Assembly (NCBI GenBank): GCA_016195815.1
Contig: JACPYX010000001.1
Span: 109,955-173,954 of the forward strand
Origin: Chloroflexota bacterium
Lineage (GTDB): Bacteria > Chloroflexota > Anaerolineae > Anaerolineales > Villigracilaceae
Length of the DNA stretch: 64,000 nucleotides
Direction of reading: 5' to 3'
Of this stretch, positions 7,293 through 62,390 are shown one piece after another (the stretch's first letter is position 1; each line of letters starts with the position of its first letter). Made by a program: the position numbers and the translations under genes. Under the pieces are notes generated by a model. It was not told the DNA's origin. It did no database searches and was given only the letters and a program-made list of their open reading frames with translations.

Positions 7293-7712
7293 ATGTCTGA
7301 ATACAAATTCTTTCATCCCACCGAAGTCCGCTACGGCGATCTCGACCCGCAGGGACATGTCAACAACGCCAAGTATCTGACTTATTTCGAGCAGGCGCGC
7401 GTCTACTATCTCATTCATCTCGGCCTATTTGGCAAGGACCAATCCTTCATGGACATCGGCCTTATCGTCGCCGACGTTCACATTGCTTACCACGCCCCCA
7501 CACATTACGGCGACGAGATCAAAACCGGCGTGCGGACGAAGAAGATCGGCGGCAAATCCATCATCATGGAGCAAAGTGTTGTTGATACCAAGACCGGCGC
7601 GGAAATGGCAAAAGGCGAAGTGGTGATGGTGGCGTTTGATTACCGCGCGCAGAAGACGATCTCTGTGCCCGATGAATGGCGGAAGAAGATTTCCGAATTC
7701 GAGGGATTATGA
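7293..7712 (+). CDS. Acyl-CoA thioesterase, 4HBT (hotdog) family
   Basis: EVRYGDLDPQGHVNNAKYLTYFEQAR motif. Confidence 0.88.
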   Translation: MSEYKFFHPTEVRYGDLDPQGHVNNAKYLTYFEQARVYYLIHLGLFGKDQSFMDIGLIVADVHIAYHAPTHYGDEIKTGVRTKKIGGKSIIMEQSVVDTKTGAEMAKGEVVMVAFDYRAQKTISVPDEWRKKISEFEGL

Positions 7713-7839: not shown

Positions 7840-7971
7840 CTAAAACTTTCGCGCACACGCAAAGGCGCGCTGATTGCCGAGACAAATTGGATTTGTGCCC
7901 GCCTGTTTTCAAAGTAATTAAGCGCTGTTCTCCGTCGTCTTGGGAAAAGATCAAATTCTAGGAAAGCAAAC

Positions 7972-8451
7972 ATGGACATAGACACCATTGAATCAAAGAT
8001 CGGCTCACACGCGCCGGATTTTCGTCTGCCAGCCACCAGTGGGAACGAGATCGGGCTTTCTGATTTTCGCGGCAGAAAAAATGTCGTGCTGTTTTTTGTG
8101 CGCGAATTCAACTGAATGCAGTGCCGCGCGCACGTCGCCCAGTTGGGGCGCATGTATGAAAAGTTCCGCGAAGCAGGCGCAGAGATCATCGTAATTTTAG
8201 GTGACACAATGGAACGCGCCCGGCAATATGTTAAATCCGTGAATGCCCCATTTCCCATCCTGAGCGATCCCGAACGCGAAGTCTATCGGATTTATGAATT
8301 GGAAAAATATTTCCTGCTCGTTCAACGCACTGCATCGCTGGTGATTGACCACGACGGCATCGTCCGCTATCTCAAGCGGACTACCATCCCGAACGTCTGG
8401 CTGCAGGAAAGCCGCGAGATCTTCGGCTTCATAGACAGCCTGAACGCGTAA
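7972..8451 (+). CDS. Peroxiredoxin-like (AhpC/TSA) protein with in-frame TGA at 8113-8115; candidate selenoprotein
   Basis: [47 protein letters not shown]-[TGA][31 protein letters not shown]... The same frame is open on both sides, and the TGA occupies the first position of a CxxC/UxxC motif at the expected peroxidatic site. Confidence 0.75.
8113..8155 (+). promoter_or_regulatory. Candidate bacterial SECIS element downstream of the in-frame UGA
   Basis: UGA, then 25 nt to the apical loop; stem ACGU-CGCCC (8132-8140), loop AGUUG (8141-8145), GGGCG-(C)-AUGU (8146-8155). Confidence 0.6.
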
Positions 8452-8522: not shown

Positions 8523-9551
8523 ATGCAATTTGACGCAGCTTTACCGCCCGTTCCATTGAAAGATATTCCCGCGATTGCCAAATCCGCCGAGGAAATCGGC
8601 TTCGCTTCTCTCTGGACCTCCGAGACTCAACACGACCCATTCCTGCCCTGCGCGTTGATCGCGGAACACACCGCGCGCATGCAATTCGGCACGGCCATCG
8701 CGGTCTCGTTCGCGCGCTCGCCTGCCACGTTGGCCTACACCGCCTGGGATTTGGCCGCGCAATCAAACGGACGATTCATCCTCGGACTCGGCACGCAGGT
8801 CAAGGCGCACATTGAACGCCGCTTCGGAATGCAGTGGCCCGAGTCTGTGACCGGAAAACTGCGCGAGCAGATCCTTGCCATCCGCGCTTTGTGGGACACG
8901 TGGCAAAACGGGACGAAATTAAACTTCCGCGGCGAGTATTACAAACTGACACTGATGTCGCCGTTTTTCAATCCAGGGCCATTGCCGCCTTCTCCTAAAG
9001 GAGAAGGGCTGGGAGTGAGGTCAATTCCAATTTACATTGCCGGCGTAAACAGGGGACTGGCAAAACTCGCAGGCGGACTATGCGAGGGATTCCACGCGCA
9101 CCCGTTCAACAGTCCGCGCTATTTGGGCGAAGTCATGTTGCCGGCGATTGAAGAAGGTGCAACAAAAGAAGGAAGAAAGAGAAAAGATATTTCAGTTTCC
9201 GCGACTGCTTTCGTTGCAACGTCCTCCGAAGAAGAAAATTTTGCGCGGACACAAATTGCCTTTTACGCGTCCACACCATCTTATCGCGCCGTGATGAATT
9301 TCCACGGCTGGGGCGATGTGGCCGAGAAGTTATCGGCTCATGCGGCTAAAGGCGCATGGCCTGAAATGCCCATGCTCATCACGGATGAGATGTTGCATGA
9401 GTTTTGTCTCGTGACTTCGCCGGAAAAATTGGCCGATGGTTTGAAAAAGCGTTACGATGGAATCGCAGACCGGCTAACTTTATATACCCCATTCGTGCCG
9501 GGCGAGAGGGATGAATGGTGGAGGAAACTGGCGAATTCTTTTATGAAGTAG
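8523..9551 (+). CDS. LLM class F420-dependent oxidoreductase (TIGR03617-like)
   Basis: GFASLWTSETQHDPFLPCALIAEHT, LGLGTQVKAHIERRFGM and PIYIAGVNRGLAKLAGGLCEGFHAHPF. Confidence 0.88.
   Translation: MQFDAALPPVPLKDIPAIAKSAEEIGFASLWTSETQHDPFLPCALIAEHTARMQFGTAIAVSFARSPATLAYTAWDLAAQSNGRFILGLGTQVKAHIERRFGMQWPESVTGKLREQILAIRALWDTWQNGTKLNFRGEYYKLTLMSPFFNPGPLPPSPKGEGLGVRSIPIYIAGVNRGLAKLAGGLCEGFHAHPFNSPRYLGEVMLPAIEEGATKEGRKRKDISVSATAFVATSSEEENFARTQIAFYASTPSYRAVMNFHGWGDVAEKLSAHAAKGAWPEMPMLITDEMLHEFCLVTSPEKLADGLKKRYDGIADRLTLYTPFVPGERDEWWRKLANSFMK
8973..9021. repeat. In-frame palindromic repeat insertion (PLPPSPKGEGLGVR)
   Basis: CCTTCTCCT AA AGGAGAAGG palindrome (8988-9007) encoding PPSPKGEG inside the LLM oxidoreductase ORF. 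Confidence 0.75.
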
Positions 9552-36795: not shown

Positions 36796-36856
36796 GTTTA
36801 TTAAATTGTTCCCGTTTTATAACACAAGCCGGAGAGCGTGTCAAACAAAAATTCGC

Positions 36857-36885
36857 TTGACACTTATCGAAATCACATTTAGACT
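36857..36885 (+). promoter_or_regulatory. Predicted promoter for the tup regulator
   Basis: TTGACA - 17 nt - TAGACT. Confidence 0.5.
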
Positions 36886-36910
36886 TACGGTTAAGTTTTT
36901 CCTTAATCGC

Positions 36911-37885
36911 ATGGACAACATCCAGACCCTGCGCGCTTTCGACCAGATCAAGTTATTAGCCGACTCGCACCGGATGCAGATCCTGCGCCTGTTGATGGCG
37001 CAGCCAGCCACGCTCACGCACCTGGCGCGGACCCTCAAGCGGTCACCGGCGTGGATTCGTCACCACATCAAGACGCTTGAATCCGCCAGCCTGGTCGAGA
37101 TGGTCGAGGTGCGCACGACGGGCAAAGTGACGGAAAAGTTTTATCGAGCAAAAGCCGGCGCGCTGCTTTTGCAGGAAATCATCCTGCCAAAAACAAGGAA
37201 GCCTGTCATCATTTTTTCGGGCAGTCATGACCTTGCCATCGAAGGCATTGCCGGGCATATCACAAAATATGTGGCCTTGCTGAATCTGCCCGTCGGTTCG
37301 CTGGACGGTCTCGTCAATCTCCGTCAGGGTTTATGCCAGGTCTCGGGCTCACACCTGCTTGACGAAAGCGGCGAATACAACACACCCACTGTCCGCCGTC
37401 TATTTCCCGATCGGGAAATGGAAGTAGTTACACTCGCCAACCGCACTCAAGGCCTTATGCTTGCTGGCGGAAATCCAAAAGGACTTAAGCGCATCGCCGA
37501 TATAGCGCGCACGAAGATCCGCTTTGTGAATCGCAACGCTGGCTCCGGTACGCGTCTATGGCTGGACAGGGAACTCAAGCGGCTCGCTATTTCATCTGAA
37601 AAAATTAACGGCTATGACCATGTTGTGAAAACACACAGCGATGCCGCTTCTTTAATTGAAGCGGGCAAAGCAGATGTATCTCTCGGCCTGCAAGCCGCTG
37701 CGCATCAACATCATCTTGATTTCATTCCGTTGTTCGAAGAACGATACGACCTTGTTCTGCCGCGCGAAAATGAAAAGGCTCTCACTCCCCTGCTCGACTA
37801 TTTACAGACAGCGGCCTTTCGAACTGAACTCAACATGCTGACGGGCTACAGTTCCTTTCACAGTGGTAAGCAAATTTCACTCTAA
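36911..37885 (+). CDS. Transcriptional regulator: ArsR-like winged HTH fused to a periplasmic-binding-protein-like domain
   Basis: FDQIKLLADSHRMQILRLLMAQPATLTHLARTLKRSPAWIRHHIKTLE (HTH) followed by a PBP-like region (FVNRNAGSGTRLWLDRELKRLAIS, GYDHVVKTHSDAASLIEAGKADVSLGLQAAA). Confidence 0.85.
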   Translation: MDNIQTLRAFDQIKLLADSHRMQILRLLMAQPATLTHLARTLKRSPAWIRHHIKTLESASLVEMVEVRTTGKVTEKFYRAKAGALLLQEIILPKTRKPVIIFSGSHDLAIEGIAGHITKYVALLNLPVGSLDGLVNLRQGLCQVSGSHLLDESGEYNTPTVRRLFPDREMEVVTLANRTQGLMLAGGNPKGLKRIADIARTKIRFVNRNAGSGTRLWLDRELKRLAISSEKINGYDHVVKTHSDAASLIEAGKADVSLGLQAAAHQHHLDFIPLFEERYDLVLPRENEKALTPLLDYLQTAAFRTELNMLTGYSSFHSGKQISL

Positions 37886-37897
37886 AGGGAAAGAGAA

Positions 37898-38752
37898 ATG
37901 AAACGATTAATTTTCGTTTTTTTTATTGGCATCCTGCTTTCAGCTTGCGCACCTGCCACTGCACCGGCGCCCGCCAACCAGACCCTGATTTTAGCAACCA
38001 CCACTTCCACGCAGGACTCCGGCCTGCTGGACGTGTTGATCCCACTCTTTGAAACAGAGACCGGCTACAAGGTCCAGACAGTAGCGGTGGGAACAGGCCA
38101 GGCATTGAAGATGGGCGAAGAGGGCAACGCGGATGTCCTGCTCGTCCACGCGCCGTCATCCGAAAAAAACTTTATGGATGGCCGCTTCGGCAAGGACCGC
38201 GCATTGGTCATGCATAATGATTTTATTATTGTTGGCCCGGCCGCTGACCCCGCCGGCATCAAGGGCAAATCCGTTGCGGATGCCCTGAAGGCGATCTATG
38301 CAAACGGCGCGACGTTTGTTTCGCGCGGCGATGATTCTGGAACCAATAAAGCCGAGTTGACTTTGTGGACAAAAGTAAAACTCGATCCCAAAACCGAGAA
38401 GCCAGCCTGGTATCTCGAAACGGGCCAGGGCATGGGCGCAACACTGACAGTTGCATCTGAAAAAAACGCATATACATTGACCGACCGGGCTACGTATCTT
38501 GCCAGCAAGGCTGGTCTGCAGCTTGATATTCTGGTCGAGAAGGATAATGCGTTACTCAACGTTTACCACGTCATTACGGTTAATCCTGAGAAATGGCCCA
38601 AGGTCAATTACGACGGCGCCATTGCATTCTATAAATTTATGACGGAGGCTTCAACGCAGGATGTCATCGGCAGGTTTGGTGTGGATAAATACGGGCAACA
38701 GTTATTCGTCCCCGATGCGGGCAAGACGGATGCAGACCTGGGTTTGCCGTAA
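37898..38752 (+). CDS. tupA: Tungstate ABC transporter substrate-binding lipoprotein
   Basis: LILATTTSTQDSGLLDVLIPLFETETGYKVQTVAVGTGQALKMGEEGNADVLLVHAPSSE: the TTTSTxDSGL motif is typical of TupA. Confidence 0.93.
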   Translation: MKRLIFVFFIGILLSACAPATAPAPANQTLILATTTSTQDSGLLDVLIPLFETETGYKVQTVAVGTGQALKMGEEGNADVLLVHAPSSEKNFMDGRFGKDRALVMHNDFIIVGPAADPAGIKGKSVADALKAIYANGATFVSRGDDSGTNKAELTLWTKVKLDPKTEKPAWYLETGQGMGATLTVASEKNAYTLTDRATYLASKAGLQLDILVEKDNALLNVYHVITVNPEKWPKVNYDGAIAFYKFMTEASTQDVIGRFGVDKYGQQLFVPDAGKTDADLGLP

Positions 38753-38762
38753 AATACCAATC

Positions 38763-39416
38763 ATGTTCCTTGATCCTGAAATCTGGCAGATCACCCTGCT
38801 CTCGTTGCAGGTCTCTGTGCTGGCGACCAGCATCAGCTTGTTGATTGGTCTGCCGTTCGGCACCTGGCTCGCGCTTGGAAATTTTCGCGGGCGTTCCTTT
38901 ATCCTAAGCATTATCAACACCGGCATGGCACTCCCGCCAGTAGTGGTGGGCCTAGTGGTCGCGATGACGTTATGGCGCTCGGGTCCGCTCGGGGACCTAA
39001 AGCTGATTTACACGCCGATGGCGATCATCATCGCCCAGACCGTGATTGCCGCGCCCGTTGTGACGGGACTGACAGCCGCCGCGCTCGAAGCCCTCGACCC
39101 GCGCCTGCAACAACAATTGCTCGGCCTTGGCGCATCGCACCTGCAAATGATCTGGATGTTGTGGCGCGAAGCGCGCCTGCCTTTGCTGGCCGCGCTGATG
39201 GCTGGGTTTGGAAGTGTCATCTCCGAAGTCGGCGCGTCCATGATGGTGGGCGGCAACATAAAAGGGCAGACGCGCGTTTTAACGACTGCCATCGTTTTGG
39301 AAACCAGCAAAGGCGGGTTCAACCAGGCGTTGGCGCTTAGTGCGCTCCTGCTGGTTATAACTTATCTGATCAATCTTGCGCTTACCGCGATCCAACAGCG
39401 GGGGACAAAACGATGA
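38763..39416 (+). CDS. tupB: Tungstate ABC transporter permease
   Basis: LPPVVVGLVVAMTLWRSGPLGDL; EVGASMMVGGNIKGQTRVLTTAIVLETSKG. Confidence 0.92.
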   Translation: MFLDPEIWQITLLSLQVSVLATSISLLIGLPFGTWLALGNFRGRSFILSIINTGMALPPVVVGLVVAMTLWRSGPLGDLKLIYTPMAIIIAQTVIAAPVVTGLTAAALEALDPRLQQQLLGLGASHLQMIWMLWREARLPLLAALMAGFGSVISEVGASMMVGGNIKGQTRVLTTAIVLETSKGGFNQALALSALLLVITYLINLALTAIQQRGTKR

Positions 39417-40138
39417 AAGCCCTGATCGAGATACACGATCTGCATATCCGGCGTAATGGGAGGGATGTGCTGGCGATTCCTGCATTGGAAATCCCGCGCG
39501 GTGAGACGCTGGCCGTAGTCGGCCCGAACGGGTCGGGAAAGAGCACATTTCTATTGGCGCTGGCGCATTTGCTAATCCCCGTCAGCGGCGGCATTTTTTT
39601 TGAGGGTAAATCACTTGAATGCTGGAATGATCTGGCATACCGCCGCAAGCTATCATTTATTTTTCAAGACCCTTTACTGCTCGACATGACGGTTGAACAA
39701 AACGTCGAACTGGGACTCAAATTTCGCGGACTGCCGAAGGATCAGATTCAAGCGCGGGTGGAGAAGTGGTTGAAACAATTGGGGATAGAGTCGCTGGCGA
39801 AACGGCGGGCCGGCCAGTTATCCGGCGGCGAAGCGCAGAGAGTCAGCCTGGCAAGATCGTTTGTGTTGGAGCCAGAATTAATTTTGCTTGACGAGCCGTT
39901 CTCATCGCTTGATCCGCCCACGCGCGCAAATCTGCTTGAAGGTTTATCTACATTGCTGGCAAAGGATCATCGCACCGCGGTCTTCGTCACGCATAATCTG
40001 AACGAGGCCGCGAAGTTAAGTCATCGCATCGCGGTGATGGTCAAAGGCATGTTGCGGCAGGTTGGCCCGGCGCGGCAGATCAAATCGAAACCAACAGATG
40101 AAGCAGTGGCATCTTTTTTGAAAGGATTGACCAATTAA
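39413..40138 (+). CDS. tupC: Tungstate ABC transporter ATP-binding protein
   Basis: VGPNGSGKSTFLLALA Walker A; LSGGEAQRVSLARSFVLEPELILLDEPFSSLD. Confidence 0.93.
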   Translation: MKALIEIHDLHIRRNGRDVLAIPALEIPRGETLAVVGPNGSGKSTFLLALAHLLIPVSGGIFFEGKSLECWNDLAYRRKLSFIFQDPLLLDMTVEQNVELGLKFRGLPKDQIQARVEKWLKQLGIESLAKRRAGQLSGGEAQRVSLARSFVLEPELILLDEPFSSLDPPTRANLLEGLSTLLAKDHRTAVFVTHNLNEAAKLSHRIAVMVKGMLRQVGPARQIKSKPTDEAVASFLKGLTN

Positions 40139-49705: not shown

Positions 49706-51373
49706 ATGCGATCAGATACCGTCAAGCAAGGTTTTGAGAAAGCCCCCCATCGAGCATTATTGCGCGCTGCCGGCGTAAGGGAAGAAGATATGGCGAAACC
49801 ATTCGTGGCAATCGTCAATTCATATGTTGACATTGTGCCCGGGCATGTGCATTTGCAGGAGTTTAGCAAACAGATAAAAGAAGCTGTTCGGGCGGCAGGC
49901 GGTGTGCCATTTGAATTCAATACGATAGGCGTTGACGATGGCATCGCGATGGGACACTTGGGGATGAAGTACTCGCTTCCTTCGCGGGAACTGATAGCGG
50001 ATTCCGTTGAGACGATGATCGAAGCCCATCGCTTCGACGCGATGGTGTGCATCCCCAATTGTGACAAGATCGTGCCGGGCATGTTGATGGCCGCCATGCG
50101 TGTCAATATCCCGACGATCTTCATCTCAGGCGGGCCGATGGCCGCGGGCAGGACGCCCGAAGGCGAAACGATTGATTTGATCTCTGTGTTCGAAGGCGTG
50201 GGGGCTTTTCAAGCCGGAAAGATTGACGAAAAGCGACTGACAACTTTGGAAAGATTTGCCTGCCCATCGTGCGGATCTTGTTCGGGCATGTTCACGGCCA
50301 ACAGTATGAACTGTTTGATGGAAGTCATCGGGCTGGCGTTGCCGTATAACGGCTCCGCGCTGGCGAAAACAGCAGAGCGCGATGCGCTGGCAAAAACAGC
50401 CGCGGCGCAGATCATGACTTTGTTCGAGCGCGGCATCAAGCCGCGCGATATTGTCACCGCCGATGCGATTGACGATGCGTTCGCCCTGGACATGGCGATG
50501 GGCGGCTCGACCAACACGGTTTTGCACACGCTGGCCCTGGCGCATGAAGCCGGCGTGGAATATTCACTGGAACGCATCAACAGCGTAGCGGAACGTGTGC
50601 CGCATATCTGCAAAGTTTCCCCGGCTGGCAAGTGGCACATGGAAGATGTCCATCGCGCGGGCGGGATTCCCGCCATCTTGAACGAAGTCCAGCGCGGGAC
50701 GCAGATGCTGCACTTCGACCGAATGACCGTCAGCGGCATGACGTTGGGAGAATCGATCAAGGGCGCGCAAATCAAAGAGGAGGATGTCATCCGCCGTTAC
50801 GATAATGCCCATTCGAAGCGCGGAGGATTGGCGGTTTTATTTGGCAATCTCGCGCCCAAAGGTGCGGTGGTCAAGGTTGGAGGCGTGAGTGCGGCGATGA
50901 TGAAGTTCGCCGGGCCGGCGGTCATTTTTGAATCGCAGGAAGAATCAATGGCGGGAATTCTCGGCGGCAAGGTCAAGGCCGGGGATGTGGTAGTTGTCCG
51001 CTATGAGGGGCCAAAGGGCGGGCCGGGGATGCAGGAGATGCTCTCGCCGACAAGTGCCATCATGGGCATGGGGCTGGGCGACAAAGTCGCGCTCATCACG
51101 GATGGCCGTTTTAGCGGAGGCACGCGCGGGGCGTGTATCGGCCACGTTTCACCTGAAGCCGCTGCGGGCGGGCCGATTGGCGCACTCAAGGCCGGGGACG
51201 TGATCGAAATTGATTTAGCGGAACGCAGGCTCGAGGTCCGTTTGAGCGAGGCGGAAATTCGTCAACGCTTGAGGGAACTGCCTCCGTTCCGGCCTAATGT
51301 CGAAAGCAAATGGCTCAAACGTTATTCACATTTTGTGACCAGCGCAGATACCGGCGCAGTTTTGGAATCTTAG
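49706..51373 (+). CDS. ilvD: Dihydroxy-acid dehydratase
   Basis: [63 protein letters not shown]. Confidence 0.97.
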
Positions 51374-51394
51374 TTTGAAACGGAGGAGGTACGA

Positions 51395-53110
51395 ATGAAA
51401 AGAACCGGCGCCCAAATTGTTTGGGAATGTTTGGTGAAGGAAGGGGTGCAGGTCGTATTCGGTTATCCGGGCGGCGCGAACCTGCCGATCTACGATGCCA
51501 TGCGCGCTTATCCGGGTATTCATCATGTTCTGCCGCGGCATGAGCAGGGCGGCGCACACATGGCGGATGGATATGCGCGTGTGAGCGGCAAGGTCGGTGT
51601 TGCAATGGGAACGTCGGGGCCGGGCGCGACGAATCTTGTGACGGGCATTGCCACCGCGCAAATGGACTCTATCCCGATGGTCTTCATCACGGGACAGGTT
51701 TCCAGCAAGCTGATCGGCTACGACGCCTTTCAGGAAACAGACGTGACCGGCATCACGCTCCCGATCACCAAACATAATTATCTCGTGACGGATGTGAACG
51801 ACATCATGCCCGCACTGCGCGAAGCGTTTTACGTGGCGCGTTCGGGCCGTCCCGGCCCGGTTCTGGTGGACATTACGAAGGATGCCCAGCAGGCCGTGGT
51901 TGAGAATTGGCAATACGATGCCAGCCCGATCCGCTTGAAGGGCTATCGTCCCGATCTGCGTCCGGCTTCAGCCAGCCTGCAAAAAGCCATTGAACTGATC
52001 AACTCTGCCAGTCGTCCGTTGATCCTGGCCGGCCATGGCGTTTTGATGAGCAATGCCATGCAAGAGCTGCGCGGCTTTGCCGAGAAAGCCAATGCGCCAG
52101 TGGCGGTCACTTTGCTGGGCATCGGCGCACTGCCTGCCAGCCATCCGCTCAATCTGGGCATGATGGGTATGCACGGTGAGACCTGGGTTAATCATGCCGT
52201 CCAGGAAGCCGATCTATTGCTGGCTTTTGGAATGCGCTTCGATGACCGCGTGACCGGCAATTTAAAAACGTACGCGCCGAACGCGAAAAAGATACATATC
52301 GAAATTGATCCGTCCGAGATCAATAAGAACGTCAAAGTGGATGTGAGCCTGGTCGGTGATCTGAAGGATATTTTGCGGCAGGTTAATCCATTGGTGAAGC
52401 CGGGCGAGCGCGCGGAGTGGCTGAATCACATTGCCGATATGAAAGGCGATAGCGCGGTGCGTGATATTCAAAACCTGCCCGATAACGGGCATCTCTATGC
52501 GGCGCATGTCATCAACGATCTGTGGCGTTTCACCGGCAGGGACACCGTCATCACCACCGATGTGGGACAGCATCAGATGTGGGCCGCGCAATATTTTCGT
52601 ATGGATAAACCGCATCGCTGGGTGACTTCGGGCGGGCTCGGGACAATGGGCTTCGGTCTCCCCGCTGCCATCGGCGCAAAATTCGCCAGCCCTCAGAGCG
52701 AAGTGTGGACCGTGGTCGGCGACGGCGGTTTCCAGATGACCATGCCTGAGTTATGCACTGCGGCGCAGGAAGGCATCAAGGTGAATGTCGCCATCATCAA
52801 CAATGGTTTTCTTGGCATGGTGCGCCAGTGGCAGGAATTTTTCTACGACAAAAATTATGAGTCCACGCCGATGAAAAGCCCGGACTTTGTAAAGATCGCC
52901 GAAGCCAATGGCTTAAAAGGCATCCGTGTAACGGAGCGTTCACAGGTCGAAGCCGCGATCCGTGAAGCGCAGGCGGCCGACGGCACAGTCGTTATTGATT
53001 TCCGTGTGGAGCAGGAAGATTCCGTGTATCCGATGGTTCCTGCGGGCGCAGATTTACATGCCATGATCCAACGTCCCAGTGCGTTGGTGGAAACCCCGCA
53101 GGATGTTTAG
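51395..53110 (+). CDS. ilvB: Acetolactate synthase large subunit
   Basis: GYPGGANLPIYDAMRAYPGIHHVLPRHEQGGAHMADGYAR; TPP motif GDGGFQMTMPEL...INNGFLGMVRQWQE. Confidence 0.97.
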   Translation: MKRTGAQIVWECLVKEGVQVVFGYPGGANLPIYDAMRAYPGIHHVLPRHEQGGAHMADGYARVSGKVGVAMGTSGPGATNLVTGIATAQMDSIPMVFITGQVSSKLIGYDAFQETDVTGITLPITKHNYLVTDVNDIMPALREAFYVARSGRPGPVLVDITKDAQQAVVENWQYDASPIRLKGYRPDLRPASASLQKAIELINSASRPLILAGHGVLMSNAMQELRGFAEKANAPVAVTLLGIGALPASHPLNLGMMGMHGETWVNHAVQEADLLLAFGMRFDDRVTGNLKTYAPNAKKIHIEIDPSEINKNVKVDVSLVGDLKDILRQVNPLVKPGERAEWLNHIADMKGDSAVRDIQNLPDNGHLYAAHVINDLWRFTGRDTVITTDVGQHQMWAAQYFRMDKPHRWVTSGGLGTMGFGLPAAIGAKFASPQSEVWTVVGDGGFQMTMPELCTAAQEGIKVNVAIINNGFLGMVRQWQEFFYDKNYESTPMKSPDFVKIAEANGLKGIRVTERSQVEAAIREAQAADGTVVIDFRVEQEDSVYPMVPAGADLHAMIQRPSALVETPQDV

Positions 53111-53124
53111 CAGGAAAGATAAAC

Positions 53125-53652
53125 ATGTTACATACACTTGTAATTCTCGTGGAAGATAAACCCGGTGTGTTGAACCGCGTGGCTTCTTTATTTCGCCGGC
53201 GCGCCTTCAATATCGAATCGCTGACCGTCGGCCACACACATACAGAGGGACTCTCGCGCATGACCGTGACCGTCGAAGGGGATGAGCATCACATCGAGCG
53301 CCTGACTTCGTATTTATACAAACTGGTTAATGTGATCCAGATCGAAGACCTGACCGGCAAACAAATGGTGACGCGTGATCTGGCGCTGATCAAGGTCAAC
53401 ACGGCCTCGGAGAAGCGCTCTGAAATCTTTCAAATGGTGGAAGTATTCCGCGCCCGCATTGTGGACGTGACCAGCCATTCGGTCATCGTCGAGATCACCG
53501 GCGACGGCGAAAAGATTGACGGTTTTGTAGATGTGCTCAGACCGCTCGGTATCGTCGAAATGGTGCGAACCGGCGCGATTGCAATGGAGCGCGGCAGTGA
53601 CAGCCTGATCAATACCAGCGAACTGCTCTTTGATTCGGCTGCAGTCGCTTAA
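53125..53652 (+). CDS. ilvN: Acetolactate synthase small (regulatory) subunit
   Basis: ACT domain: LVEDKPGVLNRVASLFRRRAFNIESLTVGHTHTEGLSRMT. Confidence 0.96.
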   Translation: MLHTLVILVEDKPGVLNRVASLFRRRAFNIESLTVGHTHTEGLSRMTVTVEGDEHHIERLTSYLYKLVNVIQIEDLTGKQMVTRDLALIKVNTASEKRSEIFQMVEVFRARIVDVTSHSVIVEITGDGEKIDGFVDVLRPLGIVEMVRTGAIAMERGSDSLINTSELLFDSAAVA

Positions 53653-53678
53653 CAAAAAACAAAAGGAGAGATTATCTT

Positions 53679-54731
53679 ATGGCAAAGATCAATTTTGGCG
53701 GCACGGTTGAGGAGGTCGTTACGCGCGACGAGTTTTCACTCGACAAAGCCCGCGAAGTTTTAAAGAACGAAGTCGTTGCGGTTCTGGGTTACGGAGTTCA
53801 AGGCCCGGCGCAGGCTATGAATATGCGCGATAACGGTCTCAACGTGATCGTCGGCCAACGTGCAGGGACGAAGAATTGGGACAAGGCCCTCGCCGATGGC
53901 TGGGTTCCCGGCGAGACTCTTTTCTCTGTGGAAGAAGCCGCCGAACGCGGAACGGTCATTCAATATCTTTTGTCGGATGCGGGACAGCGTTCGCAATGGC
54001 CGAAAATCGTGGAAGCTCTTAATGAAGGCGACATGCTTTATTTCTCGCATGGATTTTCCATCACTTTCAAAGATGATACGGGCGTGATTCCGCCACCGCA
54101 GGTGGACGTGGCGCTGGTCGCGCCGAAAGGTTCGGGACGCAGTGTGCGCACGAATTTCCTGGATGGTTCAGGTATCAATGCCAGCTTCGCTGTTCATCAG
54201 GATGCAACTGGCAAGGCTTATGAACGCACGATCGCGTTAGGCATCGCCATCGGCGCGGGATATTTATTCCCGACCACGTTTGAAAAAGAAGTTTATTCCG
54301 ACCTGACAGGCGAGCGCGGCGTTTTGATGGGCGCGTTGGCCGGTGTGATGGAGGCGCAATACAACACATTGCGTTCGCATGGACACTCCCCGTCCGAGGC
54401 CTTTAATGAAACAGTTGAGGAACTCACGCAATCACTGATTCGCCTCGTCGGACAGAACGGCATGGATTGGATGTATGCCAACTGCTCGACCACCGCCCAA
54501 CGCGGCGCGCTGGATTGGAAGAATAAATTCCGCGAGGCGGTGGCTCCTGTCTTCAGCGATCTTTATCAAAGCGTGCTGACCGGCAACGAAGCCCGCATCA
54601 CGCTTGAAGCCAACAGCCGGCCTGATTACCGCGAAAAGCTGGATAAGGAATTAGCCGCCATACGCGATTCTGAAATGTGGCAGGCCGGCGCGGCGGTGCG
54701 TTCGTTGAGGCCGGAGAATTGGAAGAAATAG
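53679..54731 (+). CDS. ilvC: Ketol-acid reductoisomerase
   Basis: VAVLGYGVQGPAQAMNMRDNGLNVIVGQR; LYFSHGFSITFKDDTGVIPP; DLTGERGVLMGALAGVMEAQY. Confidence 0.97.
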   Translation: MAKINFGGTVEEVVTRDEFSLDKAREVLKNEVVAVLGYGVQGPAQAMNMRDNGLNVIVGQRAGTKNWDKALADGWVPGETLFSVEEAAERGTVIQYLLSDAGQRSQWPKIVEALNEGDMLYFSHGFSITFKDDTGVIPPPQVDVALVAPKGSGRSVRTNFLDGSGINASFAVHQDATGKAYERTIALGIAIGAGYLFPTTFEKEVYSDLTGERGVLMGALAGVMEAQYNTLRSHGHSPSEAFNETVEELTQSLIRLVGQNGMDWMYANCSTTAQRGALDWKNKFREAVAPVFSDLYQSVLTGNEARITLEANSRPDYREKLDKELAAIRDSEMWQAGAAVRSLRPENWKK

Positions 54732-54829
54732 CAAATAGTGAGCAGAGAGTAGTGAGTAATTACTGATCATCCAACCTCTAATTATCTAATCTCTAACCAT
54801 CCAGTCTCTTTCCTTGAAAGGAAGACTCT

Positions 54830-56470
54830 ATGTCAATTACCAACTATGTAAAGATTTTCGATACCACTTTGCGCGACGGCGAGCAATCCCCGGGCGCCAC
54901 GATGACCTCCGCTGAAAAACTGGAAGTGGCGCGTTCGCTGGCGCGCATGGGCGTTGACATTATCGAAGCCGGATTCCCCGCCGCTTCACCGGACGATCTC
55001 GAAGCTGTCAGGCGGATTGCGGTCGAAGTGGGCAATCCGCCCAAGGGTGAGCCCGATGCGGGAGTCCCGGTTATCACCGGCCTGGCGCGCGCCAACAAAT
55101 CCGATATTGATAAAGCCTGGGAAGCCATTCAGGACGCGCAGAAACCGCGCATCCACACTTTTTTGGCGACATCTGAAATTCACATGAAGCACAAATTAAA
55201 AATGGATGCGGAGGAAGTGATCCAGCGCGTTTCAGAAATGGTGGCGTACGCGCGCACGCTGTGCGCCGACGTGGAGTTTTCTCCGGAAGATGCCGGACGC
55301 TCTGATCCGGAATTTTTGTATGTGGTGTTGGGCGAAGCCATCAAATCCGGCGCGACCACGTTGAACATTCCCGATACAGTGGGGTACACCACCCCCGATG
55401 AATTTTATAAATTGATTGACGGCATCATCAAGAATACGCCGGGCATGAGTGAAAATATAACCGTGTCCGTGCATTGCCACGATGACCTTGGCCTGGCGAC
55501 GGCGAATACGCTTGCTGGAATCCGCGCCGGCGCGCGCCAGGCCGAGGTGACCATCAATGGAATCGGCGAGCGCGCGGGTAACACATCGCTCGAAGAAGTG
55601 GTGATGGCGCTCAAGACGCGTCACCCGGTTTTTGGTTTGGAAACGGGAATCGAAACGAAACAACTTTTGCGCGTCAGCAGGTTGGTCAGCAATTACACGG
55701 GCATTGTCGTGCAGCCGAATAAAGCCATCGTCGGCGCGAATGCGTTCGCGCATGAAGCGGGCATTCACCAAGACGGAATGCTCAAACACCAGACCACGTA
55801 TGAGATCATGCGCCCTGAAGATGTGGGCGTCAACCAAACCACGCTGGTGATGGGCAAACATTCCGGTCGCCATGCGTTGCGCTCGCGCCTCGCCGCAATG
55901 GGACATTCACTCGACGAAGGCGAGCTGGATAAGGCCTTCGCGCGTTTCAAAGAATTGGCCGACCGCAAGAAGGTCATCACCGACGCCGATCTCGAAGCCG
56001 TCATTGCCGATGAGTTCTATCGTCCGCGCGATGTATATTATCTCGAAGGTTTGCAGGTTTCATGCGGCACGCTGGGTTTGCCCACTGCCACGGTCCGTTT
56101 GCGCGGCCCCGACCGCGCGGTTCACGTTCATGCTTCAATGGGCAGCGGCCCGGTGGACGCAACGTATAAGGCCATTGATGCCATCGTTAAGATGCCGAAC
56201 AAACTGCTGGAGTTCAACATCCACGCCATTACCGAAGGCATTGACGCTCTTGGTGAAGTCACCGTTCGCATTCAAAGCGGCAATGGCGATAGCACAATGG
56301 ACGCGCAGAAAGAAATTGAGTTCTCGCGCGTCTACGGCGGTCACGGCGCAGATATGGACATCATCGTCGCCAGCGCCAGGGCGTATATCAACGCCATCAA
56401 CAAATTGATCATCGCCCAAACCGAAGGACTGCAAGTGGTCCAAAATAATTTTGGCGTGATGTTGGGATGA
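54830..56470 (+). CDS. leuA: 2-isopropylmalate synthase
   Basis: [66 protein letters not shown]. Confidence 0.96.
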
Positions 56471-56614
56471 AGCACAGCGCTTCATTCTTGACCGGCGGTT
56501 GATTCCAGCCAATGAGCATTTAACTCCATCCCAACAGAATCCAGCCAACCGCAAAGAAAGATTTTCCTGGCGTTCTACTTATTCCTGGATGTTCAAAAAA
56601 GGTTTTTATAAACA

Positions 56615-58024
56615 ATGCCCAAAACGCTCTTTCAAAAAATCTGGGACTCGCACGTTGTTACTGAACAACCCGATTCCCCGGCTGTCCTCTACATTGACCT
56701 TCATCTTGTGCATGAAGTCACCTCGCCGCAGGCTTTCACCGGCCTGCGCCAGCGCGGACTCAAAGTCCGCCGCCCCGACAAAACCCTGGCGACGATGGAC
56801 CATTCGATTCCGACCACGCCGCTCGACGTCCCGATTGCGGACGCGCTGGCCGCCGCGCAGATCAAGCAAATGGAGACCAACGCCGCCGAATTTGGAATCA
56901 CACTGCACGGCATGAACAGTCCGCAGCGCGGCATTGTGCATGTCATCGGCCCCGAACTCGGACGCACCCAGCCGGGCATGACCATCGTGTGCGGCGATAG
57001 TCACACTGCCACGCACGGCGCGTTCGGTGCATTGGCTTTTGGTATCGGCACGTCCGAAGTGGAGCATGTGCTTGCCACGCAATGCCTGTTACAGCGCAAA
57101 CCTAAAACGTATGAAGTCCGTGTAAATGGAAAAATATCCAAAGGCGTTTCGGCCAAAGATATTATTCTCGCGCTCATCGCCAGGATCGGCGTTGGCGGGG
57201 GAACGGGACATGTCTTTGAATTCACCGGCGAAGCCATCCGCGGCCTGACGATGGAACAACGCATGACGATCTGCAATATGTCCATCGAAGGCGGCGCGCG
57301 CGCCGGCATGATCGCGCCCGACGACAATACGTTTGAATATCTGGCGGGCCGCGAATTTTCTCCGAAGAACGAAGAATGGGACAAGGCGGTTGCGCGCTGG
57401 CAACAATTGCCAAGTGATGAAGGCGCAACTTATGATAAGTCCATCACGCTGAATGCTTTTGAAATCGAGCCGATGATCACCTACGGCACAAATCCCGGCA
57501 TGGGCATGAAGATCACGGATCGAGTTCCGACCGCCGAGTCTTTTTCCGACGCTTCGCAAAAAGCCGCATTTGAAAAAGCATTAACTTACATGGGGCTTCA
57601 ACCCGGACAATCTTTGCTCGGCCAAAAAGTGGATGTGGTCTTCATCGGTTCATGCACAAACTCGCGTATTTCTGATCTGCGTTTGGCCGCTTCAATGCTC
57701 AAAGGCCGCAAAGTTTCTGAAAGCACGCGCGTGATGGTCGTGCCCGGTTCACAGGATGTCAAAAAACAAGCCGAGCAGGAAGGCCTTGATAAAATCTTCA
57801 AAGAATCCGGCGCGGAATGGCGCGAAGCCGGATGCAGTATGTGTATCGCGATGAACGGCGATGAATTGAAGCCCGGACAATACGCCGTCTCTACCAGCAA
57901 TCGCAACTTTGAGGGCCGTCAGGGAAAAGGCGGGCGAACATTTTTGGCGAGTCCGTTAACTGCCGCGGCAAGCGCGATTTCCGGCGCGGTCTCTGATCCG
58001 CGCGCAATACTCAATAATCTTTAA
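56615..58024 (+). CDS. leuC: 3-isopropylmalate dehydratase large subunit
   Basis: [68 protein letters not shown]. Confidence 0.97.
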
Positions 58025-58076
58025 TTTGATAATCGAGTGTCGAACATCCAATATCGAATTATCTGAAACGGAACCT

Positions 58077-58658
58077 ATGGCTCAATTTACAACCCTTACT
58101 TCCCGCATACTCCCTCTGCCCGTCAACGACATTGATACGGACCAGATCATCCCGGCGCGTTTCCTCAAAGCCACCGACAAAAAGGGCATGGGCGATAATC
58201 TCTTCGCCGATTGGCGCTACAACCCGGACGGCTCGCCAAAGCCGGGCTTTGTTCTGAACAAGCCCGAGTCAAAGGGCGCGCAAATTTTATTAGCCGGTGA
58301 CAACTTCGGCTGTGGTTCGAGCCGCGAGCACGCTCCCTGGGCGCTGATAGGTTTTGGATTCCATGCCGTTATCAGCACATCCTTCGCCGATATTTTCCGC
58401 AATAACGCCTTGAAGAACGGCCTCATCCCCATCATCGTGGATGAAGCCACGCACAAAATGTTATTCGATCTGGTCGAAGAAATTCCCAATGCCGAATTCA
58501 CGGTTGATCTCGCCACGCAATCGCTTTTGTTCCCAAACGGCTCTGTGAATTTCCCGATTGACCCATTCAACAAAACCTGCCTGCTCAACGGCGTGGATGA
58601 ACTTGGCTACATTATGGGATTTGAAAAACAAATCAGTGTGTTTGAGTCAAGAGCGTAG
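58077..58658 (+). CDS. leuD: 3-isopropylmalate dehydratase small subunit
   Basis: LPVNDIDTDQIIPARFLK; GDNFGCGSSREHAPWALIGFG. Confidence 0.96.
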   Translation: MAQFTTLTSRILPLPVNDIDTDQIIPARFLKATDKKGMGDNLFADWRYNPDGSPKPGFVLNKPESKGAQILLAGDNFGCGSSREHAPWALIGFGFHAVISTSFADIFRNNALKNGLIPIIVDEATHKMLFDLVEEIPNAEFTVDLATQSLLFPNGSVNFPIDPFNKTCLLNGVDELGYIMGFEKQISVFESRA

Positions 58659-58665
58659 TCCGTAA

Positions 58666-58715
58666 TTCGTAATGCGTAAAAAGATTCTTACGGATTACAT
58701 ATCACGCATTACGAA
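58666..58715. repeat. Inverted repeat TTCGTAATGCGT ... ACGCATTACGAA
   Basis: 12-bp arms 58666-58677 and 58704-58715; same family as 5952-6022. Confidence 0.85.
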
Positions 58716-58736
58716 ATTCACAACACGGAATAACTT

Positions 58737-60293
58737 ATGGCCATCATCCAAATCTACGACACAACTTTGCGCGACGGCACGCAGTCTGAAGGCTTTACGC
58801 TTTCGGCCAATGACAAGGTCCGCATCGCACAGCGGCTCGACGATCTCGGCGTGGCCTTCATCGAAGGCGGCTGGCCGGGTTCGAATCCGAAAGACGTTGA
58901 GTTCTTCGAGCGCGCCCGCGACATGCAATGGAACAATGCGCTTATCGCGGCATTCGGTTCGACGTGCCGCGTCAAAGGAGGCCCCGAAGACGACGCCAAC
59001 ATCAAAGCGCTGCTCGATTCGCACACGCCCGTCTGCACCATCTTTGGCAAGACCTGGACCCTTCACGTCAGGGAAGTTTTGCAGACCACGCCCGAAGATA
59101 ATCTCCGCATCATCGAGCAATCGGTCGCGTATCTTAAATCAAATAACAAACGCGTCATCTATGACGCCGAACATTTTTTCGACGGGTACAAAGCGGATTC
59201 ATCCTACGCACTCGAGACTCTGCAAGCCGCTATTCGCGGCGGTGCGGAGACGGTCGTTTTATGCGATACCAACGGCGGGACCTTGCCCTGGGAATTGGAA
59301 CGCATCATTCGGGACCTGAAGCCTGTTCTCGCTCATCCATTCGGAATCCATACTCACAACGATTCCGAGTGCGCCGTGATCAATTCGCTGGCCGCTGTCC
59401 GCGAGGGCGCAATGCAGGTTCAAGGCACGATCAACGGAGTTGGCGAACGCTGCGGAAATGCCAATTTGATTTCCATCATCGCCGACCTTGAACTCAAAAT
59501 GGGCTGTCAATGCCTGCCCAAAGGAAACATTGGCAAGTTGTACGATCTTTCGCATTTCGTGGCGGAGGTCGCCAATATCAGCCCCGATGAACATTTGCCG
59601 TTCGTCGGCAAATCCGCGTTCGCACACAAAGGCGGCGTGCACGTCGCCGCGATGAGACGCAGCGCACAATCTTATCAACACATCGAGCCGGAAAAAGTCG
59701 GCAACAAAATGCGCGTGGTGGTCTCTGATCTTTCGGGCCGCGGCAATTTATTAAGCAAGGCTGAAGAACACGGCGTTGAAGTGGATGGCGAAGAAGTGCT
59801 TGGCGTGCTTAACGACATCAAGGAACTCGAGGCACGCGGCTTTTCATTTGAAGCCGCCGAAGCCTCCGTGACCATGATGTTGAAGCGGCAGGAATATAGC
59901 TACAAGGCGCCCTTTGAATTGATTGATTTTTTTGTCAATGTCGAGCATCGTCAGGGGCGCGGCATCTTCGCCGAAGCAATGGTCAAAGTGCGCGTGCAAG
60001 GCGAACTGCTTCACACTGCGGCGGAAGGTAACGGCCCTGTTAACGCAATGGACAATGCTTTGCGAAAGGCCCTGGTTGGTTATTATCCCCAAATCGCCCA
60101 ATTCCATTTGTCCGATTACAAAGTCCGCATCCTGGATTCGGATCACGGCACTGAAGCCATCACGCGCGTATTGATTGACACGCGTAATAACGCCAGCCGC
60201 TGGAGCACCGTCGGCGCAAGCACGAATATCATCGAAGCGTCGTGGCGCGCGCTGGCGGACTCAGTGGAATACGGTTTGATGGTGGCACATTAA
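58737..60293 (+). CDS. cimA: (R)-citramalate synthase (LeuA-like)
   Basis: IYDTTLRDGTQSEGFTLSANDKVRIAQRLDDLGVAFIEGGWPGSNPKD; TFGKTW-like IFGKTWTLHV; HNDSECAVINSLAAVREGAMQVQGTINGVGERCGN. Confidence 0.93.
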   Translation: MAIIQIYDTTLRDGTQSEGFTLSANDKVRIAQRLDDLGVAFIEGGWPGSNPKDVEFFERARDMQWNNALIAAFGSTCRVKGGPEDDANIKALLDSHTPVCTIFGKTWTLHVREVLQTTPEDNLRIIEQSVAYLKSNNKRVIYDAEHFFDGYKADSSYALETLQAAIRGGAETVVLCDTNGGTLPWELERIIRDLKPVLAHPFGIHTHNDSECAVINSLAAVREGAMQVQGTINGVGERCGNANLISIIADLELKMGCQCLPKGNIGKLYDLSHFVAEVANISPDEHLPFVGKSAFAHKGGVHVAAMRRSAQSYQHIEPEKVGNKMRVVVSDLSGRGNLLSKAEEHGVEVDGEEVLGVLNDIKELEARGFSFEAAEASVTMMLKRQEYSYKAPFELIDFFVNVEHRQGRGIFAEAMVKVRVQGELLHTAAEGNGPVNAMDNALRKALVGYYPQIAQFHLSDYKVRILDSDHGTEAITRVLIDTRNNASRWSTVGASTNIIEASWRALADSVEYGLMVAH

Positions 60294-60304
60294 ATAAAAT
60301 CCAA

Positions 60305-60382
60305 TGTCATTGCGAGGGCGTTTTTTGCCCGAAGCAATCCCTTCGGAGTTTGGGAGATTGCTTCGCTTCGCCCGCAATGACA
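60305..60382. repeat. Nested palindromic repeat, TGTCATTGCGAG.../...GCAATGACA with inner GAAGCAATC/GATTGCTTC
   Basis: Outer arm identical to 3035-3046; inner 9-bp arms at 60331-60339 and 60356-60364. Confidence 0.85.
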
Positions 60383-60398
60383 TCAACAAGGAAAACAC

Positions 60399-61457
60399 AT
60401 GAATTTCAAAATAACCCTCCTCCCCGGCGACGGCATCGGTCCCGAAGTGGTCGCCGAGGCTGTCCGCGTGCTGGATGCCATTGCCAGTAAGCACGGACAT
60501 TCATTCAAATTTACCGAACGATTGATGGGCGGCTGTTCGATTGATAAATTCGGTTCGTCGCTCACAGATGAAACTCTTGCCGATTGCAAATCTGCAGACG
60601 CGGTTTTGCTCGGCGCAGTCGGCGGCCCAAAGTGGGACGACCCGTCCGCGAAGGACCGCCCCGAACGCGGATTGCTTGCGTTGCGAAAAGGCCTCGGCGT
60701 GTTCGCGAATCTTCGTCCTGTGAAAGCGCATTCGGCGCTGATGGAATGGTCGCCGCTCAAGCCGGAGAAACTCAAGGGCGTGGATATCATGGTCGTGCGC
60801 GAACTGACGGGCGGTTTATATTTTGGCTGGCCGAAGGGACGCGATGTCAAAGATGGCCGCGAACGCGCGGTGGATACGCTCGAATATTACGATTACGAAG
60901 TCAAACGCGTGATGGAGCTTGCATTTAAATTGGCGAAAGGCAGGAAGAAAAAAGTTGCCTCAGTGGATAAAGCCAACGTCCTGGAATCATCCCGCTTATG
61001 GCGGCAGATTGCGGCTCAAACCGGAAAAGAGAATCCCGGCATCGAACTTGAACACGTTTTGGTGGATACCGCTTCGATGAAACTGATAACTTCACCTGCA
61101 TCGTTTGACGTGGTCGTCACCGAAAACATGTTCGGCGATATTCTCACAGACGAGGCGTCTGTGTTGGCGGGTTCTATGGGGATGTTGCCGTCGGCCAGTT
61201 TAGGAGAGTCCGGCGCGGGGTTGTTCGAGCCGGTGCATGGGTCCGCACCGGATATTGCAGGCAGGGGAATCGCAAATCCGATTGGCGCGATTCTTTCGTC
61301 GGCAATGATGCTGCGCCATTCATTCAAACTCGAGGCCGAAGCCGCGTCCATTGAAAAGGCCGTGGACGATGTGATAACATCCGGCGCGCGTACTGCCGAC
61401 ATTGGCGGCAAGTTAACGACCCGTCAAATGACGGATGAAATCATCAAAAGAATGTAG
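60399..61457 (+). CDS. leuB: 3-isopropylmalate dehydrogenase
   Basis: [65 protein letters not shown]. Confidence 0.96.
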
Positions 61458-61469
61458 AGGAAAATTATC

Positions 61470-62390
61470 ATGGGCATGGAATCGAAGTTCATCTGGATGA
61501 ACGGTGAAATGGTGCCGTTCGAAAAAGCAACCCTGCATTTTCTCACGCCCGCACTGCATTATGGCGCGGCAGTGTTCGAGGGAATTCGAGCATATAACAC
61601 GGCGAAAGGGCCGGCGGTCTTTCGCTTGAATGAACATACCGAGCGCTTGTTCGACTCGGCGCGCGTGCTTGGCTTTCGTGAATTCCCGTGGACGGCGGCG
61701 CAGGTGAGCGCGGCTGTCAAGCAGACTGTGAAGGCGAACGGTTTTGCCGATTGCTACATCCGCCCGCTTCTGTACCTGGACGGCGGCGGCTGGAACCTGA
61801 ACGTGGATTTTGGCAAGCCCAGCCTGGCGATTGCTGTGTGGGAATGGGCGAACTATCTCGGCGAGGAAGCGCTCGCAAAAGGGATTCGCGCCAACATCTC
61901 GTCGTTCACGCGCCATCATCCGAATGTTTCAATGACCAAGGCCAAGATCGCAGGCAACTATGTCAACAGCATTCTCGCCAAAACCGAGTCGCAGCGGCTT
62001 GGATTTGAAGAAGCCATCATGCTTGATCCGCAGGGATACATTGCGGAATGCACCGGCGAGAATCTATTCCTGGTGCGCGATGGAAAAGTCATCACGCCGT
62101 CCACTGCGCCCGTGCTGGAAGGCATCACGCGTCACACGATTTTGACGATTGCAAAAGATTTGGGTTATGAAATTCTCGAACAACCGGTTTCCCGCGACCA
62201 GCTCTATGTTGCCGACGAAGTATTTGTGTGCGGAACGGCTGCCGAGTGCATTGGCCTGAGCGAAATTGACTTCCGCAAGATCGGCGATGGAAAATCCGGC
62301 AGGATCACGCGTGAGATTCAAAATGTGTATCACGACGCGATCCGTGGAAAGATCGCAAAATATGAGTCGTGGTGTGATTACGTTGGGTAA
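61470..62390 (+). CDS. ilvE: Branched-chain amino acid aminotransferase
   Basis: LTPALHYGAAVFEGIRAYNTAKGPAVFRLNEHTERLFDSARVL; GYIAECTGENLFLVRDGKVITP. Confidence 0.96.
   Translation: MGMESKFIWMNGEMVPFEKATLHFLTPALHYGAAVFEGIRAYNTAKGPAVFRLNEHTERLFDSARVLGFREFPWTAAQVSAAVKQTVKANGFADCYIRPLLYLDGGGWNLNVDFGKPSLAIAVWEWANYLGEEALAKGIRANISSFTRHHPNVSMTKAKIAGNYVNSILAKTESQRLGFEEAIMLDPQGYIAECTGENLFLVRDGKVITPSTAPVLEGITRHTILTIAKDLGYEILEQPVSRDQLYVADEVFVCGTAAECIGLSEIDFRKIGDGKSGRITREIQNVYHDAIRGKIAKYESWCDYVG

Follow-up and report, generated by a model that had tools for sequence, protein, structure and literature searches.

A peroxiredoxin-like UxxC selenoprotein gene in a Chloroflexota bacterium, with apparent repeated replacement of its selenocysteine by cysteine among relatives

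The window, which is the whole 64,000-nucleotide stretch of DNA analyzed here, contains a peroxiredoxin-like reading frame with an in-frame TGA. Does this locus encode a complete enzyme in which the UGA is read as selenocysteine (Sec), or is the gene broken? The first-pass annotation had described one frame from ATG 7972 to the stop at 8449-8451, with the TGA at 8113-8115 as the sole interruption, and the coordinates, the TGA context, and the stop are all as it described. The ATG matches the N-termini of the closest relatives. Read through the TGA, the product carries the motif NUMQCRAH and an AhpC-TSA domain (99.1 bits against a Pfam gathering score of 26). The ORF track had been said to split the gene, and standard calling indeed yields just 8116-8451, the 111-aa 3′ part. 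The features of the locus are collected in Table 1. Based on the evidence below, we assign a probability of about 0.96 to the explanation that the gene encodes a Prx-fold thiol/selenol oxidoreductase, in which UGA 8113 is decoded as Sec through SelB and a hairpin and a Sec48-Cys51 cycle would operate.

Table 1. Features of the selenoprotein locus and its immediate neighbors, in window coordinates
Feature	Coordinates	Strand	Description
Upstream neighbor, 4HBT-type thioesterase	7293..7712	+	Context, not part of the selenoprotein
Shine-Dalgarno-like AGGAAAG	7960..7966	+	From the sequence; 5 nt upstream of the ATG
Prx-like UxxC selenoprotein gene	7972..8451	+	159 aa including Sec48; stop TAA 8449-8451; Pfam AhpC-TSA 2.2e-28; dN/dS far below 1 on either side of the UGA
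Sec48 UGA codon	8113..8115	+	59 relatives with TGA and 23 with TGC/TGT here; full Sec machinery in the genome
Cys51 (TGC)	8122..8124	+	Sole Cys of the protein; second UxxC residue; same alignment position as the peroxiredoxin peroxidatic Cys
SECIS hairpin within the coding region	8132..8155	+	ACGTCGCCC / loop AGTTG (8141-8145) / GGGCG-(bulged C 8151)-ATGT; 5/7 pairs with compensatory changes in Sec genes, none in Cys genes
Downstream neighbor, luciferase-like monooxygenase	8523..9551	+	Context

To determine whether the frame is maintained, substitution rates were compared on the two sides of the UGA. When the window gene is compared with the two relatives nearest to it, dN is ~0.1 and dS is 0.9-1.4 both 5′ and 3′ of the codon. 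Purifying selection thus acts on both sides (dN/dS ~0.1), which rules out a decaying gene and agrees with the earlier claim that the quality of the frame is preserved around the TGA. Relatives were then sought in 396 genomes of the class, in 400 of the order, and in one scan of a public collection. The site could be read in 82 distinct relatives (duplicates left out, the window's own gene counted); the Sec codon is TGA in 59 of them and TGC or TGT in 23, and no other amino acid is encoded. Thr or Ser occupies this position solely in distant PrxQ-type paralogues. The alignment of homologues that the first-pass annotation had proposed as a check therefore places either TGA or a Cys codon at the site. 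The TGA relatives are spread over many families of the class, and their assemblies include a complete single-contig genome (G213). The identical TGA in 59 relatives excludes a miscalled base in practice. A pseudogene or a sequencing error, with the UGA a real stop or the codon in truth TGC/TGT, might be suspected in a draft genome of 23 contigs, and one relative (L080, in G626) has an extra TAA in its match. Given the recurrence of the TGA, the low dN/dS on its flanks, and the retention of the SECIS, this explanation is left with hardly any probability. As a separate observation, four genomes (G679, G592, G061, and G027) carry a Cys version (L075, L076, L079, and L082) plus a second, TGA-containing copy elsewhere, with its SECIS intact.

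The same comparisons bear on the alternative that the UGA is a normal stop and that the 111-aa ORF past it encodes a functional protein of its own. An ATG follows the TGA immediately in most UMQC relatives, and the 111-aa protein is the product that gene callers would give. However, this protein would be missing both the strands at the N-terminus of the fold and the first residue of the active site, and the codons upstream of the UGA are equally constrained. Moreover, the codon after the TGA is CTG, ATA, or CCN rather than ATG in some relatives, and the frame is uninterrupted in the Cys relatives. A separate 111-aa protein is therefore very improbable, and the product of the gene is almost certainly a full-length enzyme whose predicted active site holds Sec.

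Decoding of the UGA requires the Sec machinery, and the first-pass annotation had named the absence of selB or selC as grounds for abandoning its proposal. In the host genome (3.16 Mb, 23 contigs, 97.9% complete), selA (538 bits), selB (352 bits, full length, profile positions 2-580), selD (349 bits), and tRNA-Sec (69.8 bits against a cut-off of 47; ARAGORN tRNA-SeC, anticodon tca) are all present, each match exceeding its curated cut-off. Furthermore, selD itself carries an in-frame TGA (CAG-U-ASK) followed by the hairpin GGCGCAG-GTT-CTGCGCC, and the host SelD is probably a selenoprotein as well. This gene (L018, G000:C5:18226-19158, minus strand) has a clear SECIS, and its GTT loop is common to the Prx-like gene of the same genome. 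The complete machinery and the TGA-bearing selD indicate that UGA recoding is available in this genome. The best formate dehydrogenase match in the genome, considered as a further selenoprotein, is without an in-frame TGA. A code change, with UGA sense throughout, was considered and rejected, as TGA is the normal stop of 16 of the 48 window genes.

The hairpin just downstream of the UGA was described earlier with a bulged C, a loop 25 nt after the UGA, and a G at the second loop position, and it is present at 8132-8155 in this form: the apical loop begins at 8141, and the G lies at 8142. The fold energy of the single sequence was rejected as evidence for a SECIS, because, when the peptide was recoded at random with synonymous codons 5000 times, 733 of the versions (~15%) folded at least as stably. 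An Rfam scan of the region returned no family covering the hairpin and nothing relevant. Comparison among relatives was informative. Across the 19 Sec genes in the subfamily of the window gene, 84% of cells pair in the seven-pair stem, and five of the seven pairs are altered on both sides somewhere in the set. Their covariation score was reached by none of 500 shuffles, and slid registers scored far lower. In L073, the second pair from the loop is G-C instead of the C-G of the others, and this swap costs a Gly-to-Ala change at a position where Gly is otherwise constant in the subfamily. In contrast, the same structure imposed on 22 Cys genes is paired in 47% of cells, with zero compensatory change; L057, which has exactly the hairpin of L024, was omitted from this set. 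TTG encodes the loop Leu in 17 of 19 subfamily Sec genes and in 2 of 23 genes with Cys (p = 1e-7, uncorrected for relatedness); TTG makes up 24% of Leu codons within the window. In these alignments, the hairpin is decayed in the Cys genes and covarying in the TGA genes, which shows that the hairpin itself, besides the peptide, was under selection. Collectively, the conserved TGA, the covariation, and the conserved loop codon across relatives are far beyond chance, and the reading of UGA 8113 as selenocysteine is strongly supported by sequence comparison. These results, together with the machinery and the codon survey, bear out the earlier proposal of a genuine Sec gene.

In a few TGA-carrying genomes, parts of the machinery were undetected: selB and tRNA-Sec in G558 (95% complete) and G732 (78% complete), and tRNA-Sec in G280 (99% complete) and G626 (89% complete). 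Given their completeness, G558 and G280 are awkward cases; the conclusion on the window gene is independent of them. The copy in G558 (L077) has an intact TGA and a clean SECIS, yet selB and tRNA-Sec were undetected there.

To place Sec48 in the fold, the product was aligned with PrxQ-type relatives and PDB sequences and modeled with AlphaFold (pLDDT 86). Sec48 falls at the Thr/Ser that opens the peroxiredoxin TxxC motif, and the peroxidatic Cys is matched by Cys51. In both the alignments and the model, UMQC occupies the position of the thioredoxin CxxC as a UxxC motif, and residue 48 lies at the start of helix 49-67. The first-pass annotation was thus right to take the TGA as the first residue of a CxxC-type motif, and its placement at the peroxidatic Cys does not hold. 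The alignment assigns the protein to the thioredoxin-like UxxC type rather than to the TxxU peroxiredoxins, in line with the literature, which separates TxxU Prx from UxxC Prx-like proteins (PMC1088965, PMC13188914). A true Sec-peroxiredoxin, with Sec as the peroxidatic residue of PxxxTxxU, would fit the Pfam AhpC-TSA assignment and the Prx-like predicted fold, and PrxU shares this fold and superfamily. However, Sec48 falls on the TxxC Thr of PrxQ/Bcp and archaeal Prx with Cys51 on their peroxidatic Cys; the Sec is displaced by three residues relative to PrxU, the PxxxT context is missing (VREFNU), and the NCBIfam PrxU model gives 41 bits against a cut-off of 270. We consider a true Sec-peroxiredoxin unlikely.

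The substrate bears on a further alternative. The best Foldseek PDB matches of the model are Bcp/PrxQ, AhpC-like, and ResA structures. A ResA/TlpA-like thiol:disulfide oxidoreductase acting on protein disulfides, and not as a peroxidase, would be in keeping with the UxxC/CxxC motif and with strong ResA matches by both sequence and fold. In contrast, ResA/TlpA act outside the membrane and neither a signal peptide nor a membrane anchor is apparent in the sequence, and the Bcp/PrxQ fold scores are somewhat better; we hold the ResA/TlpA-like function to be a tentative possibility, at somewhat under even odds. For the UxxC oxidoreductase as a whole, the following mechanism is proposed. SelA and SelD would produce Sec-tRNA(Sec), and SelB would bind the hairpin (GUU loop ~25 nt past the UGA) and then deliver Sec-tRNA(Sec), yielding a 159-aa Prx-fold thiol/selenol oxidoreductase that is probably cytosolic. 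The selenolate of Sec48, at the N-terminus of helix 1, would most likely attack the oxidized substrate, either a peroxide or a disulfide. Cys51 would then form a Sec48-Cys51 selenenylsulfide, which thioredoxin or a similar donor may reduce. Such a selenenylsulfide cycle, with thioredoxin as the reductant, is the mechanism that we consider likely.

To relate the gene to known systems, we compared it with described selenoprotein families. It belongs to a known kind of selenoprotein, Prx-like UxxC, which is listed as a UxxC Prx-like thiol:disulfide oxidoreductase (PF00578) in Table 1 of PMC13188914, as "Prx-like 1" in PMC2398784, and as "Prx-like protein" in PMC1088965. The window gene and this family share an AhpC-TSA domain, Sec as the first residue of UxxC, a bacterial SECIS right after the UGA, and known Cys homologues. 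In contrast to that family at large, the window subfamily (FVREFNUMQCRxHVAQLG) was found mainly in the host's order, with occurrences in a few further families of the class; the window protein lies below every curated NCBIfam cut-off. The best NCBIfam match is the SelL-related redox protein NF040769 (75.6 bits, below the curated cut-off of 120), which all 33 tested relatives also match. SelL proper has a UxxU motif, whereas the window motif is UxxC. Also related to the window gene are the UPFC/UPYC Prx-like selenoproteins of the class (L036-L049, L086-L112), which share the Sec position, mostly CRxH and a GTT loop, and ~33-47% identity with the window protein. Their SECIS stem, however, is in another register (GGCGC-AGTT-GCGCC, 4-nt loop), and a Cys version was not seen among the sampled UPFC/UPYC genes. 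Within the window's own family group, five UPYC/UPHC-type Sec genes (L048, L092, L093, L099, and L110) are without a GTT loop or a clean stem at the usual place. One UPFA variant (L039) has Ala as the second UxxC residue, so that Sec there would act without the usual resolving Cys.

The neighboring genes provide context. The thioesterase is also upstream of the Cys orthologue in L053 but is non-adjacent there. A gene of the luciferase-like monooxygenase type follows directly in L053, and in L024/L052 one begins downstream. Elsewhere in the window, translations read by eye suggest a tungstate/molybdate-type-looking ABC transporter (binding protein, permease, and ATPase) preceded by a regulator that has a substrate-binding-like domain (36806-40138) and a long run resembling branched-chain amino-acid biosynthesis (ilvD, ilvB/N, ilvC, leuA, leuC/D, leuB, and ilvE; 49706-62390).

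To trace the exchange between Sec and Cys, a subfamily tree was built with the Sec/Cys site masked. It shows three changes between Sec and Cys genes, and the outer UPFC-type relatives are all Sec; together these point to three Sec-to-Cys replacements, in L056, in L057, and in a large Cys clade. We infer that Sec is the ancestral state and that Cys replaced it about three times in hosts keeping the Sec machinery; nearly all hosts in the comparison keep selB and tRNA-Sec. The inner branches of the tree have modest support, with 86/90 at the large Cys clade. The clearest case appears in sister genomes: L024 (G213, TGA) and L057/L052 (G621, TGT) are 97.8% identical over 3.5 kb, a single base differs at the Sec codon, and the next 54 bases, including the SECIS, are identical. 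Both genomes keep selB and tRNA-Sec. In the first tree, this TGA/TGT pair was nested within the Cys genes with weak support, whereas after masking of the site and removal of distant rows it comes out as sister to the Cys genes (86/90); its exact place differs between the two trees. The survey of Zhang and colleagues in 2006 found Sec-to-Cys replacement to be a rare event and included no case from the Prx-like family (PMC1794560). In contrast to that picture of rare events in a few other families, it is probable that ancestral Sec gave way to Cys on three or more occasions in bacteria retaining the machinery, leaving relic SECIS elements, with the TGA/TGT sister pair a switch caught in the act. 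The repeated switching is a real addition to the 2006 picture, but not a new kind of system.

For annotation, the window gene would be recorded wrongly as a 111-aa fragment, and many of the 59 TGA relatives are likely to be affected in the same way. For the biology of the family, the sister genomes with TGA or TGT ahead of an identical SECIS offer a natural experiment, one base in size, on what makes a lineage retain or lose Sec, and this near-identical Sec/Cys pair makes the contribution of selenium to the enzyme directly testable.
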